NCBI GenBank assembly: GCA_026995265.1
Contig: JALWPC010000636.1
Location: 1-35,192 of the forward strand
DNA length: 35,192 bases
Source of the DNA: Paracoccaceae bacterium
GTDB lineage: Bacteria > Pseudomonadota > Alphaproteobacteria > Rhodobacterales > Rhodobacteraceae
Direction of reading: 5' to 3'
The translations under genes were made by a program, and so were the position numbers. Positions within the stretch are counted from its first letter, which is position 1, and the number at the start of each line of letters is the position of its first letter. This document shows, piece by piece, positions 1 through 35,192 of this stretch. The notes beneath the pieces were generated by a model. The model was not told where the DNA came from. It saw only the letters and a list, made by a program, of their open reading frames with translations, and did no database searches.

Positions 1-127
1 TTGACCATGGGTTTGGTTGTGTTGATTATAAAATTGGCAAATATGGCCCATTTGTGCCCGGCTTTGGCGAGCCGGATGGGCGCTATTATTTTGATAGCGA
101 AGCGCTTGCCACCGCCGCTAAAAAATT
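1..127. repeat. Terminal direct repeat copy 1 (identical to 35066-35192); circular contig overlap
   Basis: Base-by-base match of the first 127 nt with the last 127 nt. Confidence 0.97.
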
Positions 128-590: not shown

Positions 591-802
591 CCCCCGCTAG
601 GATGACACCCGAAATGATGGAGAAATCCCGCGAGCGCCTTGGCCTTGGGGCCGAGGCTTTCGCGCGGATGCTGGCCGTCAGCTACCAAACTTATTATAGC
701 TGGAAATCTGGCAGAACGCAAATCCCCGTGCGAATCCAGCGGCTTATCTATCTTGCCGAGCGGGCAGACCCGCGCCTTGTGGCTAGTTGGTCCGCGAAAT
801 AA
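587..802 (+). CDS. Small HTH DNA-binding protein (XRE/Cro-like)
   Basis: 71 aa; 'LGLGAEAFARMLAVSYQTYYSWKSGRTQIPVRIQRLI' resembles HTH; ATGA coupling with the upstream gene. Confidence 0.7.
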   Translation: MTPARMTPEMMEKSRERLGLGAEAFARMLAVSYQTYYSWKSGRTQIPVRIQRLIYLAERADPRLVASWSAK

Positions 803-1250
803 TCCCCGCCTCTATCCGGTCCATCGCCCGCGCTTTAACTCGCCGCACCGTAGTGTGCGAACGGCGCTGAATGTCGCCAACCCGCCGCGATGATAGCCCC
901 TTCGCCAGCAAAACCAACGTGCAGCGGTCGCATGTGCAATGTTTCCGGCGGTGCCGGTAGTTAATCGCGTAGCGGAACCATGTCATAACCTCGCTGTGGC
1001 GGTCGAGTGCGTCCGCCGTGGGCTGATGGCGGGGGCGTTTCTCGGTTTCCTCGCCGACCCCAACCTCGCCAACATGCTCGTGAAAATAGTCCGGCCCGTG
1101 CTGGCGCCGGACCTTGGGCCACGGGTTGCGCAAAAAACGCTCGGTTTCCATACATTCCCGCAACAGCCACCAGATGCAATCTTGCGGCGTGTGTGGCTTG
1201 CCCTCTAGGGCAAGCCTTGACCGGGCGTAGTCCATGCAGGCGTTAATCAT
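783..1250 (-). CDS. Hypothetical protein with C-terminal HTH-like segment (possibly DUF6362-like)
   Basis: 155 aa; 'LSSRRVGDIQRRSHTTVRRVKARAMDRIEAGI' looks like a sigma-type HTH. Confidence 0.6.
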   Translation of the reverse strand: MINACMDYARSRLALEGKPHTPQDCIWWLLRECMETERFLRNPWPKVRRQHGPDYFHEHVGEVGVGEETEKRPRHQPTADALDRHSEVMTWFRYAINYRHRRKHCTCDRCTLVLLAKGLSSRRVGDIQRRSHTTVRRVKARAMDRIEAGIISRTN

Positions 1251-1682
1251 TTACGGGCCGTCCAATATTTTCACCGGTGGGCTTTCCTCCCGCAATAGCC
1301 ATGCGCGCCTTTCGGATTCCGCTTCAAGCAACTTTTGGGCCCAGAGCATCCGTTCCCTAACGGCCTGTATTTTTTCATCAAGGGCCGCCGCCGACAGTGA
1401 TCCCGGCACCTCTTCAACAAAACCAACCGCGCAATCGTTGGGGCCGTGGTATGAAAATACAATTTTTCTTGTTTCGCCGCGCATTTCAGACGACGCCGTC
1501 CACCCCGGCATCAGGAATTTATCCACAACATCGCAAAACCCTTCCGGGGGCGCACCGCTTGCTTTGCCGCCCCTGAAAAGGCCAAAAATATCTAGAATTC
1601 TTCTAATCACTTCTCGCCCCTTCCGGTGCCATCCAATTAGCAAGCGCCGCCTGATAGCGCCGCCGGAGGGCTGTTTTTTCAT
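1251..1682 (-). CDS. Hypothetical protein
   Basis: 143-aa ORF, co-directional and tightly packed with neighbours. Confidence 0.55.
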   Translation of the reverse strand: MKKQPSGGAIRRRLLIGWHRKGREVIRRILDIFGLFRGGKASGAPPEGFCDVVDKFLMPGWTASSEMRGETRKIVFSYHGPNDCAVGFVEEVPGSLSAAALDEKIQAVRERMLWAQKLLEAESERRAWLLREESPPVKILDGP

Positions 1683-2061
1683 CCAACCGCGCTACCAGTT
1701 CGGCCCACGCCGGAAACCATTTTTGCGTCCGGCCCCAATGTTCTAGAACATCCCGCACGATGTCCGCCGGATAGGCCTGCAAATCGCGGGCGTAAATTTT
1801 AATCGTCGCCTCCATGTCCGGCAATTTCCGGCCCGTGTTGGTCCGGAGCGTCAATTCTCCCAGCCACGCCAACACTTGCCCTCGGTCCGGTCCGGCAAGC
1901 CATGGCCTCAATCTGGCGCTGATCGCGTCCGCCTCGGCCTGATGGCGACATACCGCCCGCCATCCCTCCCATGGCTTTTGGCTCGATTTGTGCAATTTCA
2001 CCTCGGATGAAATCCACGATTCCGGCGGGCTGTTGCCCATTTTTTCCAGCGTTTGGGGCAT
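1603..2061 (-). CDS. Putative helicase-loader/replication accessory protein (lambda P position)
   Basis: 152 aa; 'ARDLQAYPADIVRDVLEHWGRTQKWFPAWAELVARLDE' resembles a segment of phage replication accessory proteins; directly downstream of the O-like gene. Confidence 0.55.
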   Translation of the reverse strand: MPQTLEKMGNSPPESWISSEVKLHKSSQKPWEGWRAVCRHQAEADAISARLRPWLAGPDRGQVLAWLGELTLRTNTGRKLPDMEATIKIYARDLQAYPADIVRDVLEHWGRTQKWFPAWAELVARLDEKTALRRRYQAALANWMAPEGARSD

Positions 2062-2752
2062 TTTCTTTCCTCGCTTGGTCTAGGTCAATGGCCGTTTTCC
2101 AACATTCCTGATTGAGCCATGTCGCCATCATTTTAGGTCGTTGCCATTGGGCAATTTCCAGATAGTCGCGATAGTTTTCTAGGTTCCGCTCAAACCGTGA
2201 CCGTTCGGCGATTGGTATTTTGGCCAGCTTCGCAAGCACAGATTTACGGCTGCCCCTATTGGCAGGGTGGGGGTAGGCGTCCCAAGCGGCCATGGGCCAG
2301 CTATCAGGTTCTGGGTTTTCCGGTTGGCCTAAAATGTCAAACTGACTATATATATTTCTATTGGGTATGTTCTTTGGGTATGTTCTATTGGGAAGTGACG
2401 CTGGCGTCACATCAGATGTGACGGAGGAATCACATTCGGAAGTGACGCTAGAATCACATTCGACTTCAAACCGAGCCTCTAAATTGACTAGATACGCCTT
2501 GTGGCGGCCCGGCCTCCCCTTAAACGCCTTCTGGCTTTTGACATATCCCCGCTTCTCCAGCACCCCTAACGCCCTGACCACGCTTTCGCGGGCACAGCCT
2601 ATCCGGTCTGCAAGGGTTTGCTGCATTGGCCATGCCGCCTCGCCGGACTTGCCTAGATAGGTTCCAAGCGTCACGAGAACGCGAAACTGAAGATCAGTCA
2701 GGGTTTTGTCGTCAACTGCCGCCGCTGGCGTGATGGAATACCTTGCGCTCAT
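1799..2752 (-). CDS. Replication initiator, lambda O-like, N-terminal winged-helix
   Basis: 317 aa; 'LTDLQFRVLVTLGTYLGKSGEAAWPMQQTLADRIGCARESVVRALGVLEKRGYV' is a wHTH; iterons lie inside the gene; 'MMATWLNQECW' typical of phage initiator C-termini. Confidence 0.75.
   Translation of the reverse strand: MSARYSITPAAAVDDKTLTDLQFRVLVTLGTYLGKSGEAAWPMQQTLADRIGCARESVVRALGVLEKRGYVKSQKAFKGRPGRHKAYLVNLEARFEVECDSSVTSECDSSVTSDVTPASLPNRTYPKNIPNRNIYSQFDILGQPENPEPDSWPMAAWDAYPHPANRGSRKSVLAKLAKIPIAERSRFERNLENYRDYLEIAQWQRPKMMATWLNQECWKTAIDLDQARKENAPNAGKNGQQPAGIVDFIRGEIAQIEPKAMGGMAGGMSPSGRGGRDQRQIEAMACRTGPRASVGVAGRIDAPDQHGPEIAGHGGDD
2341..2462. promoter_or_regulatory. Candidate origin of replication: AT-rich tract, tandem 13-mers, three 18-bp inverted-repeat iterons
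   Basis: TTGGGTATGTTCT x2 at 2361-2373 and 2374-2386; AGTGACGCTGGCGTCACA 2394-2411; TGTGACGGAGGAATCACA 2417-2434; AGTGACGCTAGAATCACA 2441-2458. Confidence 0.7.
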
Positions 2753-3306
2753 TTCTGGCTAACCTCCGGTTTCGGCCACCAGCTGTTTTCTGGGCCGGGG
2801 ATTGTTTTCCCCTTTTTGCAATTACATGTCCGACAAACAGTAAAGAGATTATCAATATCGTTGGTACCACCAGCGCAAACAGGCATAAAGTGGTCAATGG
2901 TCTGATTCTCATCCGAACCACACCACACGCACCTAAAGCCGTCTCTCGCGTAAACCTTGATTCTGAGGCTGTTCGGTATTGTCTCGCGAGCGGGCGATTT
3001 GCTCTTAATTGGGACAGGGTCATCAAATAATTCACCCTCAACCCACAGCCAGAAATATCTGTCTGGGCCGCGCTTTGGTATCCTAACTATCAGATTTTGC
3101 TGAGATAAGCTTTTGATAATTGGCTCCAAATCATCAACACAGCACCACGCCCGCCAACTGCCGATATTATCCTCGCTAATCATAAAATATCGGTCCATTG
3201 GGCGCTCATTCCAGCAATAACCGTCGGCGGCTTTTAACAAAAACAGCCTCTCGCTGGGGCAGCTAAGCTCTTGTTGGGCGGCCCAAGCAAACTCTGCTAA
3301 ACTCAT
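2749..3306 (-). CDS. HNH endonuclease
   Basis: 185 aa; 'RDGFRCVWCGSDENQTIDHFMPVCAGGTNDIDNLFTVCRTCNCKKG' HNH motif; GGAGG upstream. Confidence 0.85.
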   Translation of the reverse strand: MSLAEFAWAAQQELSCPSERLFLLKAADGYCWNERPMDRYFMISEDNIGSWRAWCCVDDLEPIIKSLSQQNLIVRIPKRGPDRYFWLWVEGELFDDPVPIKSKSPARETIPNSLRIKVYARDGFRCVWCGSDENQTIDHFMPVCAGGTNDIDNLFTVCRTCNCKKGKTIPGPENSWWPKPEVSQK

Positions 3307-3434
3307 AACTCCCTCCTAAATTAAGCGCTATGGGGGTAAATTTGGCCCGTCATGCGCGTTTTTCGTTTTAATAGCCCAAGGGGCCGGAATTCATAAACGG
3401 CTATCTGGGTGCTTCTGTGGCGGTTGTGTCGCGC

Positions 3435-3635
3435 TCATATCGTCCCGCCCCTCTGTTTGCCAGCATAGGGCAGGCGCTTGTGGGCCTTGGCCCTTTCGTC
3501 CTCGCGCTCTACCGCGCGGGCAAGTTCCACCTCCGCGCAAATCTCATGCTCCGGAACGCGGTAAGCTTTGGCCAGTTCAGCCGTGTTGAAGCCCCGCTTT
3601 AGGCCCTCTAGATATTTGCGGCCCATGTAACTCAT
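3435..3635 (-). CDS. Small hypothetical protein
   Basis: 66 aa; ATGA coupling with 3632 ORF. Confidence 0.55.
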   Translation of the reverse strand: MSYMGRKYLEGLKRGFNTAELAKAYRVPEHEICAEVELARAVEREDERAKAHKRLPYAGKQRGGTI

Positions 3636-3901
3636 GCCCGCCTCGCAATCATGGCGCCTGCCGCTATGTCGGCCTCATCATATCCAGTGAATTTTATTTT
3701 TCTGGGCGGTGACGGCTGCCGGTCTTTCAGGCTTAGCAGGTTCCGGCGATCAACGATGCTGGCCACGGCCTCCCTTGTCCGGCGCTTGCCCGTTCGGGTT
3801 GTCAATATGGCCGCAATCTCCCGATAGGTCTTGCCGGTAGGTAGCAAGCGCTTAAGTTCCGCTATATCGCCATCCGTCCATTCCTGCCAATCATTCCTCA
3901 T
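3632..3901 (-). CDS. GcrA/Myb-like small DNA-binding protein
   Basis: 89 aa; 'WTDGDIAELKRLLPTGKTYREIAAILTTRTGKRRTREAVASIVDRRNLL' resembles a SANT/GcrA N-terminal HTH. Confidence 0.55.
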   Translation of the reverse strand: MRNDWQEWTDGDIAELKRLLPTGKTYREIAAILTTRTGKRRTREAVASIVDRRNLLSLKDRQPSPPRKIKFTGYDEADIAAGAMIARRA

Positions 3902-4172
3902 GCCGGAGGCCCTTCATAAATTCTGCCACATCCTCAACAGACCGCAATACCTGCATTGGCGACCCTTTCCAGCTGTCCCGAAATTCCACCTGCGCCTTGT
4001 TCAGCTTGGCACCCTCAATTTTAACCTCAACCAAATGCGTTTGGCCACGGTATCCAACGAGCAAATCAACGGGGGTATTCAGCCGCTCAACGCTGGCCCC
4101 ATAGGCCCTAAGCGCATCAACGATTAGTTTCTCGTTCGCGTCACGCTTAGGGTTGTAGCGGTTAAGGCTCAT
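3891..4172 (-). CDS. VRR-NUC / resolvase-like nuclease
   Basis: 'NEKLIVDALRAYGASVERLNTPVDLLVGYRGQTHLVEVKIEGAKLNKAQVEF': D-x(n)-E-x-K nuclease core; start reassigned to MSLNRYNPKRD. Confidence 0.65.
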   Translation of the reverse strand: MSLNRYNPKRDANEKLIVDALRAYGASVERLNTPVDLLVGYRGQTHLVEVKIEGAKLNKAQVEFRDSWKGSPMQVLRSVEDVAEFMKGLRHEE

Positions 4173-4330
4173 GCGGCGGCCACATCCCTTATGTTCAATA
4201 AAAAATATAGGACCATAAAAAGGGCCAAGGCCGCCGCCGACCCGTATTTCTTTTTTGACACACGCGCACCAATCATAACCGACCACATAATGGCCACGAC
4301 CAAGGAAATATAATACTCAAAATCACTCAT
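4169..4330 (-). CDS. Two-TM small membrane protein (53 aa), absent from the ORF track
   Basis: MSDFEYYISLVVAIMWSVMIGARVSKKKYGSAAALALFMVLYFLLNIRDVAAA*; ATGA overlaps on both sides. Confidence 0.6.
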   Translation of the reverse strand: MSDFEYYISLVVAIMWSVMIGARVSKKKYGSAAALALFMVLYFLLNIRDVAAA

Positions 4331-4536
4331 GCGCTCTTTACCAAGCAATACCGCGCCCAGTGCTTTTCGCCGTCGGGGCTTGGCTCGTTCACGGTTTTAA
4401 TATCGTGCCCCTCTTTGCGCAGGTCGTAAATCCTTGCGCCCAATCGGAAGCATCCGAATTTACGCAGTGCGTCAATCGGCGTAATCCCCCTTTTGTGCGT
4501 TTGCAAATATCTTAAAATCTGTTCGGCCTGCGCCAT
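4327..4536 (-). CDS. Phage helix-turn-helix domain protein
   Basis: 'QILRYLQTHKRGITPIDALRKFGCFRLGARIYDLRKEGHDI', a common phage wHTH; GGAGG upstream. Confidence 0.75.
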   Translation of the reverse strand: MAQAEQILRYLQTHKRGITPIDALRKFGCFRLGARIYDLRKEGHDIKTVNEPSPDGEKHWARYCLVKSA

Positions 4537-4545
4537 AAGTCCCTC

Positions 4546-4650
4546 CTATTTTAGCTTTTTCATCTCCACCGGATACACCACTAAAATTATTGCCCCGAAC
4601 AGGCAAATATGATAAACAGACGCCAGCACTATCATGGTTTCAAGCGTCAT
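4546..4650 (-). CDS. 34-aa single-TM protein, absent from the ORF track
   Basis: MTLETMIVLASVYHICLFGAIILVVYPVEMKKLK*; sits between the flanking genes. Confidence 0.45.
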   Translation of the reverse strand: MTLETMIVLASVYHICLFGAIILVVYPVEMKKLK

Positions 4651-5311
4651 TCGGAACCCCCATAATTAGGCGCATCAACCCCGCTAATTTTAGAAATCTT
4701 TGCACTTTCCAATGGCCACTGTCGGGCCGGTCGTAATAACCAAGCCCGACTAAATACTGGTCCCGCACCGTGGTGTGGTCGCGGTTCAATGTGTCCGCAA
4801 TCTGGTAATAGGTGGCCCCCATGCGCCTAAGCGTGTCGGTGACGGCCATTCTGGCTACAACAATCTGGTGGCTGCGTGTCCGGCCACGAATGGAGGCCAT
4901 GGGGTAGCCGGTGATTAGTTTGATAGTTTCAAGGGCCGCGCGTTGGGCCTCCCCCAATTTGGCCAATGGAACCATGCGGGCGTTGTAATTTATGCGGGGC
5001 TTGCCGTTGCAGGTAATGGATTCAGGGGATGGCTTGCGGGGGTGGGTGTGGTAGTCCGCCAATTTATCATAGGGGCGGGCGATGTCACCACCGCCCGCCA
5101 GAGGGGGGCCAATTACTGCCTGATAGACCGTCCGCCCCGCCATGGCAGTTTCACGCTTGGCGCATTGGCCCTGTCGCCGCCCCTCAACGGCGCTTAGGAG
5201 GTTGACGGGACGGTAAGGGTGGCCAGCGGTTAATCGGGGAGGAACGCAACCGCTGGCCTCGCCGGACCTTGTGCAGTCAACAAGGAGTGATGGCCCGGCG
5301 AAATCTGTCAT
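4640..5311 (-). CDS. Protein with DnaA domain IV-like C-terminal region
   Basis: 'RGRTRSHQIVVARMAVTDTLRRMGATYYQIADTLNRDHTTVRDQY' resembles the DnaA C-terminal DNA-binding helices; no AAA+ region. Confidence 0.65.
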   Translation of the reverse strand: MTDFAGPSLLVDCTRSGEASGCVPPRLTAGHPYRPVNLLSAVEGRRQGQCAKRETAMAGRTVYQAVIGPPLAGGGDIARPYDKLADYHTHPRKPSPESITCNGKPRINYNARMVPLAKLGEAQRAALETIKLITGYPMASIRGRTRSHQIVVARMAVTDTLRRMGATYYQIADTLNRDHTTVRDQYLVGLGYYDRPDSGHWKVQRFLKLAGLMRLIMGVPNDA

Positions 5312-5526
5312 GCCGCTTTCACTTTCCGCCAAGATTCGGGGGTTTCCCGCTCCATTATCTTAACGGCTTTGGCGTAGGTGTCCATCATAATTGGGCGCCC
5401 GTTTGATAGTCTAGCATAAAGCTTTGGATTATTGAAGTGACGCAAACCCCAGACCGACGGAGCGCATCCAAGGGTTTTGCAGTGGGCCTTAATCTTGGCC
5501 GCCAATTGTTTTGCTGTGTAAATCAT
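5308..5526 (-). CDS. Putative repressor-like regulator (72 aa), first gene after the leftward promoter
   Basis: MIYTAKQLAAKIKAHCKTLGCAPSVWGLRHFNNPKLYARLSNGRPIMMDTYAKAVKIMERETPESWRKVKAA*; position next to divergent promoters; HTH only weakly recognisable. Confidence 0.5.
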   Translation of the reverse strand: MIYTAKQLAAKIKAHCKTLGCAPSVWGLRHFNNPKLYARLSNGRPIMMDTYAKAVKIMERETPESWRKVKAA

Positions 5527-5533
5527 GCCTTCC

Positions 5534-5562
5534 CCTATATTGGCTGTTGCCCACAATGTCAA
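5534..5562 (-). promoter_or_regulatory. Leftward sigma70-like promoter (TTGACA-17-TATAGG)
   Basis: Minus strand: -35 TTGACA (5557-5562), 17-bp spacer, -10 TATAGG (5534-5539). Confidence 0.65.
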
Positions 5563-5595
5563 TAATATTTTTTTACTAGGGGCCAAACTTTTTTC

Positions 5596-5624
5596 TTGAC
5601 CTTGGCCTTGGCCCAATATATAAG
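5596..5624 (+). promoter_or_regulatory. Rightward sigma70-like promoter (TTGACC-17-TATAAG)
   Basis: TTGACC 5596-5601, 17-bp spacer, TATAAG 5619-5624. Confidence 0.6.
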
Positions 5625-5645
5625 GGGTTATCAATGGAGGTTGAT

Positions 5646-5948
5646 ATGCAATATTACGACTTTAACAAGGATGGCCTGTTATTTGAGGACTTGGTCATCG
5701 AATGGACCGTCACCGGATTGGAAGAACCGGAGGCTAATGTCACATATATAGCGCAGTTTGAGGGCGAGCCGAATATGCTAGAAAGCAAAAACCCTGTTGT
5801 CAAGGCATTGGCCGAATGGATGCGCGGCGTTATCGAAGGCGACACTGACGCAGAAGCCGAGGCCATCGAGGGCGCTGGTTTTTCGTTTCGCAATAGCCCA
5901 GACGGGAATCCATACACAGGAAGCTGGAGGATTACAAATGGAAAATAA
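5646..5948 (+). CDS. Hypothetical acidic protein
   Basis: GGAGG at 5636-5640 before ATG 5646. Confidence 0.7.
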   Translation: MQYYDFNKDGLLFEDLVIEWTVTGLEEPEANVTYIAQFEGEPNMLESKNPVVKALAEWMRGVIEGDTDAEAEAIEGAGFSFRNSPDGNPYTGSWRITNGK

Positions 5949-6117
5949 TATTATCCGCGAGGTCGGTATTTACCGATTACTGGAAACCCCCGACGGGAAA
6001 TACTTCCTAATCAACACACATACAGATGACGAACGCAGGGTGTCACAAAGGCTGGCTTTCTTGTTGAAGGCAGAGGGCGACTCTAGTTTTGTTGAACAGT
6101 GTTCTTTTTTTCTTTGA
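5938..6117 (+). CDS. Hypothetical small protein (59 aa)
   Basis: GGAGG before ATG 5938; overlaps the upstream stop. Confidence 0.6.
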   Translation: MENNIIREVGIYRLLETPDGKYFLINTHTDDERRVSQRLAFLLKAEGDSSFVEQCSFFL

Positions 6118-6132
6118 TGCAGGAGAAAGCTA

Positions 6133-6489
6133 ATGACTAATATAGCACGCCTACCCCTTTCCTATCGCCAATTTACGGACACGGAACTTGAAGCGGCCTT
6201 CTGGCACCTGTCCACCGCCGCCCGCGCGGTTGATGAACTTATCTTGAACCACAAGCGCGTTCTCCCCTTCACTGGCGGCATGGGGTTCCCCGGCCAGTTA
6301 ACACCAATGGTTGCGCGCTGGGAGAAAGACCTAATCGAATTGGACCAGCATATGCAAAGGGTGATTAAGGAAATGACCTTGCGCAAGATGAAAATGCCGG
6401 ACTACGCGGCGGAAAAACAAAGCCCTGCCGATGAATGGCAGGCGCAATTTGAAAGATACGAAAGCCATCTTGGAGGATGTAATGACTAA
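6133..6489 (+). CDS. Hypothetical protein
   Basis: 118-aa ORF; GGAG upstream; operon position. Confidence 0.65.
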   Translation: MTNIARLPLSYRQFTDTELEAAFWHLSTAARAVDELILNHKRVLPFTGGMGFPGQLTPMVARWEKDLIELDQHMQRVIKEMTLRKMKMPDYAAEKQSPADEWQAQFERYESHLGGCND

Positions 6490-7216
6490 AGAAAATGCGC
6501 AAGAACTCGCCGTGATGAACCAAGCGCCAACGCCGATGGAGTTAATCCAGAGCGCCATATCAAGCAATGTAACGCCGGAAGCCTTGGGCCAGCTAATGGA
6601 CCTGCAAGAGCGCTGGGAGGCCAACAATGCCAGAAAGGAATTTGACCGCGCCATGGTGGCCGTTCAAGGCGATATGCCGGAAATTGTTAAAACCAAGCAG
6701 GTGTGCTTCAAAAACAAGGCAGGCGGCTTCACCGAATATAAGCATGAAGACTTAAGCGAAATGGTGGAAATCCTGCGCCCAGTTCTCGCAAAACACGGCC
6801 TTTCGTTCCGGTGGCGCACTGCAAGCGATAAAAACCTTGTCACCGTGACCTGCCTTCTTTCCCATCAAATGGGCCATAATGAAGAAACATCTCTAAGCGG
6901 CGGCATAGATACCAGCGGCGGCAAGAACGCAATACAGGGCGTGGCTTCCGTTGTCACCTATTTGCAGCGCTATACCCTGAAGGCGGCTTTGGGCATTGCG
7001 GCGGGGCATGATGACGATGCACAATCTGTTGTCGAGCCTGACGCATCAAGTGATTGGATCGCCAAAATCGAGAACGCATCCACGGCAGCGGAGTTGCACG
7101 AAATCGGCCAAGAATTGAAGGGCGTAAATATGCCGCAAAACTCGCTTAACGCCGTCAAGAAAGCATATTCGGTGGCCCTGAAATCGCTTAGAGAGGCCGA
7201 CAATGGAGCAGCGTAG
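6482..7216 (+). CDS. ERF-family single-strand annealing recombinase
   Basis: 'EFDRAMVAVQGDMPEIVKTKQV...YKHEDLSEMVEILRPVLAKHGLSFRWRT...GVASVVTYLQRYTLKAALGIA' matches ERF features. Confidence 0.9.
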   Translation: MTKENAQELAVMNQAPTPMELIQSAISSNVTPEALGQLMDLQERWEANNARKEFDRAMVAVQGDMPEIVKTKQVCFKNKAGGFTEYKHEDLSEMVEILRPVLAKHGLSFRWRTASDKNLVTVTCLLSHQMGHNEETSLSGGIDTSGGKNAIQGVASVVTYLQRYTLKAALGIAAGHDDDAQSVVEPDASSDWIAKIENASTAAELHEIGQELKGVNMPQNSLNAVKKAYSVALKSLREADNGAA

Positions 7217-7811
7217 CGCAGAATGGATGGCGGCAAGGGCGGGCAAATTCACGGCTTCGCGCGCCTCGGCCTTGATGGCCAAGATACGGTCCGGCAAGCC
7301 CGCCAAAAGCCGAGAGGAACTAATCGTCACGCTGGCGGTCGAGCGCATCACGGGAGCATGTGTTGAGACCTATAGCAATGCGGCGATGCAGCGCGGGGTT
7401 GAATTGGAGGCCGAGGCTAGGGACGCCTATGTGTTCGAGACAGGGCAGGCGGTCGACGAGGTGGCGTTCATTGAATTTGACGGCCTGCCAAATACCGGAT
7501 GCTCGCCGGACGGCCTGATAAGCAAAGACGGCATGGTTGAAATCAAGTGCCCTGCCTCTATGGCCAAGCACGCTGACGCCATCCGCAAGGCGTCGCACGC
7601 GCAAGAATATCGCTGGCAGTTGCAGCATCAGCTTTTATGCGCCGAACGAGACTGGGTGGATATTGTTTCTTATGACCCGCGCTTTCCGGCGGGAATGCAG
7701 TTGGCAATCCACCGCGTCGAACGCGACAACGGCATGTTGGAAGAACTGGCCGAAGCCATCGAGGTGGCAGACAAGGAAGTCATTAAGATCATGAAGGAGT
7801 TGAAGAAGTGA
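7203..7811 (+). CDS. YqaJ-family viral recombinase / lambda-type exonuclease
   Basis: 'RSAEWMAARAGKFTASRASALM...NTGCSPDGLISKDGMVEIKCP...QEYRWQLQHQLLC': D...EIK core. Confidence 0.9.
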   Translation: MEQRSAEWMAARAGKFTASRASALMAKIRSGKPAKSREELIVTLAVERITGACVETYSNAAMQRGVELEAEARDAYVFETGQAVDEVAFIEFDGLPNTGCSPDGLISKDGMVEIKCPASMAKHADAIRKASHAQEYRWQLQHQLLCAERDWVDIVSYDPRFPAGMQLAIHRVERDNGMLEELAEAIEVADKEVIKIMKELKK

Positions 7812-12087: not shown

Positions 12088-12417
12088 ATGGCCAAACCTA
12101 ACCGGTACGACCCGTGGCAATATACAGAAGAAGAAAAGAAGAATCTGGCCGAAAAATATCCGACCACAGAGGATTGCTTGGCCGCTATAGCGGAGATCAA
12201 CTCGCGCTTAGTAAATTTGGGCTGGAATAACGCAATCTATTGTCCAAAGGACGGCACGAGTTTTGATGCGATTGAATTTGGCTGCTCTACCATTTTTGAT
12301 TGTTGGTATGACGGCGAATGGCCGAACGGGCGTTATTGGGCATGTTATGGAGATGATATAGATATATGTCGCCCTGTTCTTTTTAGGCCGAGGAAAGAAA
12401 AACATGACCAAGATTGA
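12088..12417 (+). CDS. Hypothetical protein
   Basis: 109-aa ORF in operon. Confidence 0.6.
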   Translation: MAKPNRYDPWQYTEEEKKNLAEKYPTTEDCLAAIAEINSRLVNLGWNNAIYCPKDGTSFDAIEFGCSTIFDCWYDGEWPNGRYWACYGDDIDICRPVLFRPRKEKHDQD

Positions 12418-13498
12418 ATGGACTCACGCGCCGGGCTTCAAGGGCGAGACATGGAACCCGATAGTTGGCTGCGACATCGAAAGCGCAGGCTGTAAAAATT
12501 GCTATGCAATGAAGCAGGCCCATCGCATCGAGAAGATGCAACCGGGCGGCCACTATAAAGGCACAACAAAACTGGTGAAGGGCAAGGCCGTGTGGACGGG
12601 AAAGGTCAAGCAAGCGCCAAAGAAAAACCTCACCGCGCCCCTGCGCTGGAGCAAGCCGCGCTTGGTTTTCGTCAACTCCATGGGCGACCTGCTCCACCCT
12701 AATGTGCCGGTCGAATGGATTGACAGGGTTTTCGCCGTCATGGCACTGGCCCCGCAACATAAATTCCTTGTGCTGACAAAACACCCCAAACGGATGCGGG
12801 AATATCTAACAGCTTTTAAGCCAGCCAAGTCGGGGCACCCGCACGACCCACAAGACCATTATCCATATGTTACACGCCATGGCACGGATGTGCCAGACAG
12901 GCCGAAGGGTGAAGTATGCTTCCACAGTAACGATTGGCCGCTCCCCAATGTCGGCCTCGGCGTATCGGTCGAAAACCAAGAGACCGCAGATAAGCGCATC
13001 CCAAAACTACTGCAAACGCCCGCCGCCATGCGCTTTGTGTCTTATGAGCCTGCACTTTGTCCGGTGGATTTTACAAACATCACGGCCTCAACGCCAACCG
13101 GCGATGAACAATGGAATTGCCTCGACAAAGTAGAAGCGCGAGATGCAGAAGGTCCAGCGCCTAAAACAGTTATTGACCAGATTATCATGGGCGGCGAGAG
13201 CGGCAAGAACGCTCGGCCATTACACGCCCATTGGGTGCGACAGACACGCGACCAATGCGCTGCCGCCGGAACACCGTTTTTCCTCAAACAGTTGGGAAAT
13301 CAGGTAGGTGAGCGGCCTGAAAATTTCAAAGAGTGGTGGACCGATAGCGCAAAAAATATTGCCGCACGCGAGCGTGAAATAATAACCCTCAAGCATCGCA
13401 AAGGAGCGGACCCATTGGAGTGGCCGGAGGATTTCCGCATCCAACAATTCCCGGAGTGGATAACCACGCCATCGCAGCAACAGGAGAGTGAAGAATGA
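12404..13498 (+). CDS. Phage Gp37/Gp68 family (DUF5131) protein
   Basis: 'IEWTHAPGFKGETWNPIVGCDIESAGCKNCYAM...LTKHPKRM...NVGLGVSVENQETADKRIPKLLQTPA...VIMGGESGKNARPLH'. Confidence 0.9.
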   Translation: MTKIEWTHAPGFKGETWNPIVGCDIESAGCKNCYAMKQAHRIEKMQPGGHYKGTTKLVKGKAVWTGKVKQAPKKNLTAPLRWSKPRLVFVNSMGDLLHPNVPVEWIDRVFAVMALAPQHKFLVLTKHPKRMREYLTAFKPAKSGHPHDPQDHYPYVTRHGTDVPDRPKGEVCFHSNDWPLPNVGLGVSVENQETADKRIPKLLQTPAAMRFVSYEPALCPVDFTNITASTPTGDEQWNCLDKVEARDAEGPAPKTVIDQIIMGGESGKNARPLHAHWVRQTRDQCAAAGTPFFLKQLGNQVGERPENFKEWWTDSAKNIAAREREIITLKHRKGADPLEWPEDFRIQQFPEWITTPSQQQESEE

Positions 13499-34734: not shown

Positions 34735-35192
34735 ATGACCATGCACAAACACTCAAACAATTGTGATCTAGCAGGCGGGCGCGATGCTGCCTATATGACT
34801 CTATCCGGTCCAAATGTATTGCAATTGCGTGACATTGCAAAAGCGCATGGGATCGAATGGCATCATGCAGCCGGTCACAATTCAGGGCGCCAAGTAATTG
34901 CGTTTTTTCCCAAAAACGCTGACGAAATTGCAGCCGTCAATAGACTGGCTGAGGCTGTTGACCAAGCGGCAATGGCTGAAAAAGCTAAAAAAGAGGCGCT
35001 CAAAAAAGCGGGCTTGCCAACATCAAAAGCGGCGCTCTGGCGCCATTTAGAATCTAATGGCGATGTTGACCATGGGTTTGGTTGTGTTGATTATAAAATT
35101 GGCAAATATGGCCCATTTGTGCCCGGCTTTGGCGAGCCGGATGGGCGCTATTATTTTGATAGCGAAGCGCTTGCCACCGCCGCTAAAAAATT
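34735..35192 (+). CDS. Hypothetical protein, 5' part of a 156-aa ORF running across the circular junction (MTMHKHSNNCDLAGGRDAAYM...)
   Basis: ATG with AAGGAG at 34721-34726; stays open to the window end and, once circularised, stops at 140 (331+140=471 nt, in frame). Confidence 0.8.
   Translation, partial: MTMHKHSNNCDLAGGRDAAYMTLSGPNVLQLRDIAKAHGIEWHHAAGHNSGRQVIAFFPKNADEIAAVNRLAEAVDQAAMAEKAKKEALKKAGLPTSKAALWRHLESNGDVDHGFGCVDYKIGKYGPFVPGFGEPDGRYYFDSEALATAAKK
35066..35192. repeat. Terminal direct repeat copy 2 (identical to 1-127)
   Basis: Exact match to the window start. Confidence 0.97.

Follow-up and report, generated by a model that had tools for sequence, protein, structure and literature searches.

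Origins of replication that lie inside the gene of their own initiator are known from phage lambda and its relatives. In lambda ori, hyphenated repeats of 18 bp bind dimers of the O protein and are followed by an AT-rich tract, all within gene O (PMC6022878, PMC5043065), and this tract stands on the 3′ side of the iterons (PMC5043065). Repeats in the AT-rich regions of origins are known from oriC and plasmid RK2 as well as from lambda ori, and in RK2 the initiator binds the repeats of the AT region as single strands (PMC4081077). Besides these replication systems, the transcriptional protein CRP is a useful reference for the locus described below, as its residues R180, E181 and R185, set in a helix of the form R-E-x-x-x-R, read the half-site TGTGA (PMC11253593).

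The stretch of DNA analysed here, which we call the window (35,192 nucleotides), is the complete genome of a phage, about 35,065 bp long and circular or circularly permuted; the two ends of the window (1-127 and 35066-35192) are identical over 127 bp. The contig was found within a bacterial genome bin. It encodes a terminase, a portal, a major head protein and an endolysin, and profile matches add an ERF-type annealing protein and a YqaJ-type exonuclease. GC skew gives no independent origin signal in the window, as it tracks gene direction. Some further genes can be mentioned for the record: a protein of 364 aa at 12404-13498 (+ strand) matches phrog_2045 (E 6.4e-88), and a small protein at 3632-3901 (- strand) has a weak GcrA-like match (E 0.0018, below cut-off) that may hint at an alphaproteobacterial host. 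A phage protein at 4640-5332 (- strand), for which there is no PHROG match, resembles DnaA domain IV (Bac_DnaA_C, E 2.1e-6, below the curated cut-off), and there is one perfect DnaA box in the window, TTATCCACA at 1519. We think that the replication origin of this phage very probably lies inside the initiator gene, and the features on which we base this reading are collected in Table 1.

Table 1. Features of the initiator gene and of the putative origin inside it (positions in the window)
Feature	Position	Strand	Basis or remark
Candidate helicase loader gene, P-like by position only	1603..2061	-	No family match
O-like replication initiator gene	1799..2752	-	317 aa; phrog_270 E 3.8e-21; HTH_36 E 4e-10
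Winged-helix DNA-binding domain	2483..2725	-	Residues 10-90; AlphaFold2 helices and strands in order
Start of recognition helix, R55-E56-S57-V58-V59-R60 (CRP-type R-E-xxx-R triad)	2573..2590	-	Alignment
C-terminal helical domain, candidate partner-binding part	1991..2248	-	Residues 169-254; predicted helices; phrog_270 match to residue 245
Iteron first in gene sense, AGTGACGCTAGAATCACA	2441..2458	.	
Middle iteron, TGTGACGGAGGAATCACA	2417..2434	.	
Iteron nearest the 13-mers, AGTGACGCTGGCGTCACA	2394..2411	.	
13-mer copy, AGAACATACCCAA in gene sense	2374..2386	-	
13-mer copy, AGAACATACCCAA in gene sense	2361..2373	-	
Candidate DNA unwinding region with the 13-mers and the ATATATAT tract (2345-2360)	2341..2393	.	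68% AT

The phrog_270 profile (replication initiation protein) spans residues 4-245 of the product and thereby covers both the winged helix and the C-terminal domain, with HTH_36 matching at the N-terminus. O-like PHROGs 391 and 678 match weakly, and the Pfam lambda-O family (Phage_rep_O) gave no match at E 0.1. In the AlphaFold2 model, a winged helix (residues about 10-90) is followed by a disordered linker, a helical C-terminal domain (about 169-254, with helices predicted at 169-177, 181-203, 206-231 and 243-254) and a disordered tail; pLDDT is 82-98 at residues 11-70 and falls below 50 across much of the linker. Foldseek and profile searches relate the domain to the winged helices of CRP/FNR, MarR/SlyA, the DnaD N-terminus, TubR and CodY. 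Membership of the CRP/FNR family is not indicated, as the protein has no sensor domain of the cyclic-nucleotide type and Crp-type HTH profiles match below cut-off only. Close relatives were not found by peptide patterns in IMG/VR or in GTDB genomes, and phage records and related genomes gave weak matches only. The iterons and the AT tract are held by the linker, that is, by the region of the initiator with the weakest protein constraint.

The original prediction was of an origin of the lambda type, with three 18-bp inverted repeats at a spacing of 23 and 24 bp in the middle of the gene, between the winged helix and the C-terminal domain. Both the arrangement and the exact positions are borne out: the family is that of a replication initiator by profile, the repeats are hyphenated and mid-gene, and the AT-rich tract lies on the side where lambda has it. 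The description of the half-sites needs amending. All three repeats have the outer core GTGA-N8-TCAC, and two of the six half-sites are GTGAT and not GTGAC. The palindromes are imperfect, with 7, 5 and 6 of 9 pairs, and since the window contains, at other places, five single 18-bp palindromes that are better, a lone repeat would mean little. The unusual part is the array. Two adjacent GTGA-N8-TCAC units did not occur in any of 100 shuffles of the window, a chain of three appeared in 4 of 20,000 synonymous recodings of the initiator gene, and the iteron array is the only cluster of at least three 16-mer repeats in the 35 kb. In gene sense the iterons start in reading phases 1, 1 and 0, so that CDSSVT is encoded under two units and VTPAS under the third, with an identical DNA core. 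As the units occupy two reading frames, it is the DNA of the repeat that is conserved and not the peptide. Mixed phases are also found in 62 of 88 clusters of related arrays, in which only 7 of 271 units stand in the phase that would create a TGA stop in frame. Judging from these phases, the repeat is kept as DNA, with the avoidance of stop codons as the only restriction.

On the + strand, the tandem 13-mer TTGGGTATGTTCT and the AT tract ACTATATATATTTCTA stand where the first reading of the sequence had placed them, the two copies of the 13-mer being 100% identical. As the gene is on the - strand, both elements are 3′ of the repeats in gene sense. The 53 bp of the candidate unwinding region contain 68% AT, compared with 45% for the gene. 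Such a flank is general among the related arrays, and it is one-sided: across the 88 clusters, an excess of AT over the gene mean, of 11-12 points (9-10 s.e.), is confined to the 0-50 bp 3′ of the arrays. The proposal that the 13-mers are an unusual addition reminiscent of oriC had to be dropped. They are not AT-rich like the oriC 13-mers, and tandem repeats recur at that place in the relatives: a tandem 9-16-mer is present in the 80 bp 3′ of the arrays in 24 of 86 clusters, compared with 0-5 in six other 80-bp segments around the same arrays. In the 0-80 bp 3′ of the iterons, 22 of 88 loci carry the word A[AT]CC[AG]TC, against 1 on the other strand and 2 in a control segment. The distance between its copies is mostly 11, 12 or 13 bp (6, 7 and 7 cases), and multiples of three are not preferred. 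The 13-mer of the window has another sequence and shares with this word the place, the strand and the period. By analogy, the 13-mers may be sites of single-strand contact for the initiator or the loader.

Related arrays were retrieved from IMG/VR by means of the DNA pattern alone (three GTGA-N8-TCAC units with gaps of 5-10). This search gave 45 viral loci, of which 39 have a winged helix ending at most about 170 nt upstream of the array, and in all of these but one (L052) the winged helix and the array share an open frame. In the genome collection, 20 of 61 matches stand behind a winged helix (in Actinobacteria, Bacteroidetes, Firmicutes, Proteobacteria, Omnitrophota and Dadabacteria); the remaining 41 do not and resemble other tandem repeats, so that outside viral contigs a match to the DNA pattern is not by itself diagnostic. 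The winged-helix model was derived from part of the loci, and it was therefore checked independently on 18 aligned relatives, of which 18 match phrog_270 and 17 match HTH_36. Two control searches with permuted half-sites of equal composition gave 12 loci, dominated by one family, and 3 loci. These are mostly behind winged helices too, so that winged-helix genes with an array inside them represent a general layout; GTGA is the commonest half-site among the three tested. Most of the loci found protein first have iterons with different sequences, and GTGA is thus not universal. A second iteron class with the same layout came from a control search (L140-L151), consisting of winged-helix initiators with GTCA-N8-TGAC arrays spaced by 21 bp and the helix TRRNIYRC. 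GTGAA arrays such as GTGAAATATCTTTCAC also recur in many viral contigs with no winged helix found adjacent (among L155-L214).

The comparison of 178 loci, grouped into 88 clusters at 60% identity, revealed a correspondence between iteron bases and residues of the recognition helix. It was spotted by aligning the recognition helices and then predicted before the held-out loci were scanned; a search pattern that fixes GTGA hides any covariation at these core bases. The base after GTGA (base 5) tracks the residue at the position of CRP Arg185, which is R60 in the window. Arginine is found in this column in 53 of 54 GTGAC clusters and in none of 22 GTGAA clusters (p = 3e-18; p = 4.5e-10 for the held-out part alone), and at the level of held-out loci in 50 of 51 GTGAC arrays and 0 of 31 GTGAA arrays. 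The base before GTGA (base 0) follows a second position: among GTGAY arrays, glutamate occupies the E56 column, that of CRP E181, in 12 of 13 cases when base 0 is T, compared with 2 of 53 with other bases (p = 2e-10). All eight held-out TGTGAY arrays behind a winged helix have R-E-xxx-R, as predicted beforehand and as in the window. A further prediction did not come true: none of 4 loci with GTGAT arrays (3 of them distinct) has E at the CRP-E181 column. When every column of the winged helix was scanned without preselection, the R60 column ranked first for base 5 (z 19.5) and the E56 column ranked first for base 0 = T (z 19.2).

Relatedness among the loci was handled by clustering by identity in place of a tree, since a tree of the winged helix (76 columns) is poorly resolved, with few supported forks. 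The best tree has 14 specificity switches, with 2 pairs on well-supported branches, and because of the poor resolution the number of independent switches is uncertain. Under single linkage, the link between base 5 and Arg persists at 40% (p = 7e-9) and at 35% (p = 1.8e-4), and that between base 0 and E gives p = 5.5e-6 at 40% and is weaker at 35% (p = 0.056). L342, found protein first and carrying GTGAC, has Arg as predicted; L009, also protein-first and with a GTGAA palindrome, has Lys. Apart from the recognition helix, the winged helices of L040 and L185 are 70% identical; nevertheless both recognition helix and iteron are switched between them. The window fits both rules: its helix reads ARESVVR, four of the six half-sites begin with TGTGA, and GTGA is followed by C in four and by T in two. 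The original prediction had suggested examining, in relatives, whether changes in the iterons go along with changes in the winged helix, and the answer from the R60/base 5 and E56/base 0 associations is strongly positive. From this covariation of iteron bases with recognition-helix residues we infer that the initiator binds the iterons.

Other explanations of the locus should be weighed against this evidence. The repeats might be an operator by which the initiator, or a host regulator of the CRP/FNR type, controls transcription of the replication genes while the origin lies elsewhere. The TGTGA half-site and the R-E-xxx-R helix are those of CRP (PMC11253593), and Crp-type profiles match the domain weakly. 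However, CRP sites have N6 between half-sites where the window has N8; in the relatives the array is found in the middle of the gene, immediately behind the winged helix, and not at a promoter; an AT-rich stretch with strand-specific tandem repeats follows it; and the sites vary with the recognition helix of the same gene. We therefore regard an operator as unlikely, and the spacing and mid-gene position led us to reject a host CRP site. Autoregulation is possible as a second function of the repeats. The best Foldseek matches, the TubR winged helices (E ~2e-3), are binders of centromere repeats and could point to a partition or incompatibility module instead of an origin. Many winged helices match about equally, though, and no partner NTPase was matched among the neighbouring genes tested (within 783-7811), while the protein matches replication-initiator families over residues 4-245 and the flank resembles an unwinding region. 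All this makes partition very unlikely.

It could also be proposed that the main origin uses host DnaA, for instance near the box at 1519, perhaps with the DnaA-C-like protein of 4640-5332. The box itself and the sub-threshold Bac_DnaA_C match are in favour of this; but a single unclustered box is not far from chance in 35 kb, and no array accompanies it near 1519, so that we give this proposal extremely little weight. At the level of the protein, the DNA repeat might have no role as DNA and simply result from a linker peptide, rich in Ser/Thr, that is itself repeated (ECDSSVTS, present twice). Two of the three units do encode the same eight residues and the linker is predicted to be disordered. 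Against it, the third unit is shifted by one frame with the DNA core kept, phases are mixed in the majority of clusters as given above, and a half-site base follows a residue of the helix that reads DNA. This explanation, which we rejected as contradicted by the unit phases, is in our opinion next to impossible. What we counted against the origin inside the initiator gene is that an array of three imperfectly palindromic iterons stands at the low end. This origin is nevertheless well supported as a reading of the sequence by the array, its frame-independent conservation, its position between the winged helix and the C-terminal domain, the one-sided AT flank and the covariation with the recognition helix.

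A lambda-like mechanism can be proposed on these grounds. An initiator dimer would bind each GTGA-N8-TCAC iteron through R55, E56 and R60, and the cluster of bound dimers would strain the neighbouring AT-rich region with the 13-mers to the point of opening. Loading of the host replicative helicase would then fall to the C-terminal domain, probably together with the protein from the gene at 1603-2061. That gene overlaps the initiator gene by 263 nt (1799-2061) in a different frame, and the tail of the initiator encoded in the overlap is predicted to be disordered (pLDDT ~40). Profile searches found no family for its product and phage records gave no match; in two other genomes (G202 and G170), weak relatives immediately follow O-like initiators. 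From its position, a role as loader is plausible.

To our knowledge, pairings of initiators and iterons have so far been worked out case by case. We think it likely that the initiator of the window belongs to a widespread class of phage initiators whose GTGA-type iterons, located in their own linker, are read by a residue-to-base code of two positions, so that the iteron could be predicted from the protein and the protein residues from the iteron. The member in the window would use the CRP triad at an origin, and the adjoining tandem 11-13-mers, strand-specific and not locked to codons, may be single-strand contacts for the initiator or the loader. Sequence suffices to read the code, which was confirmed by loci outside the discovery set; it would allow the prediction of origins in many uncharacterised phages. 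Moreover, it offers a ready test of how initiators change specificity, for example with the pair L040/L185, and it would show the CRP reading triad employed for replication. The residue-to-base code and the recurrent tandem 11-13-mers beside the iterons go beyond the known kind of origin. No earlier report of either was found in the literature searched, the coverage of which is incomplete.

Like lambda ori (PMC6022878, PMC5043065, PMC7466680), the window has the iterons in the middle of the initiator gene, an AT-rich tract 3′ of them and a further, putative replication gene downstream, and its iterons are likewise 18-bp inverted repeats at near-helical spacing (23 and 24). It differs in the iteron sequence (TGTGA-N8-TCACA) and number (three, compared with four in lambda), in an initiator that matches HTH_36/phrog_270 and not the Pfam lambda-O profile, in tandem 13-mers of its own sequence and in a downstream gene unrelated to lambda P by profile. 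By analogy, the putative origin of the window would work like lambda ori with a different family of initiator. The initiator of the window is also close to the phrog_270 initiators with internal iterons of the GTGA class, with which it shares the domain order, an array just after the winged helix, the spacing of 22-24 bp, the AT-rich 3′ flank and the recognition code; unlike most of them, it has E at the CRP-E181 column together with base 0 = T, a minority combination, and no other member found exceeds about 40% identity to it in the winged helix. With CRP it has in common the R-E-x-x-x-R helix and the TGTGA half-site (PMC11253593). In contrast to CRP, the protein lacks a cyclic-nucleotide domain and its predicted function is replication, the half-sites are N8 and not N6 apart, that is, two bases further, and the Arg that corresponds to R185 goes with the base that follows TGTGA, which lies immediately outside the CRP core and is not itself a core base. 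Because of this spacing and of the base tracked, the contacts need not be the same as those of CRP. Finally, the window and some of the related arrays resemble oriC and plasmid RK2 oriV, with their 13-mers, in having tandem repeats of 11-13 bp that keep to one strand of an AT-rich stretch next to the initiator sites (PMC4081077), whereas the 13-mer of the window differs from those in sequence and is itself only moderately AT-rich.
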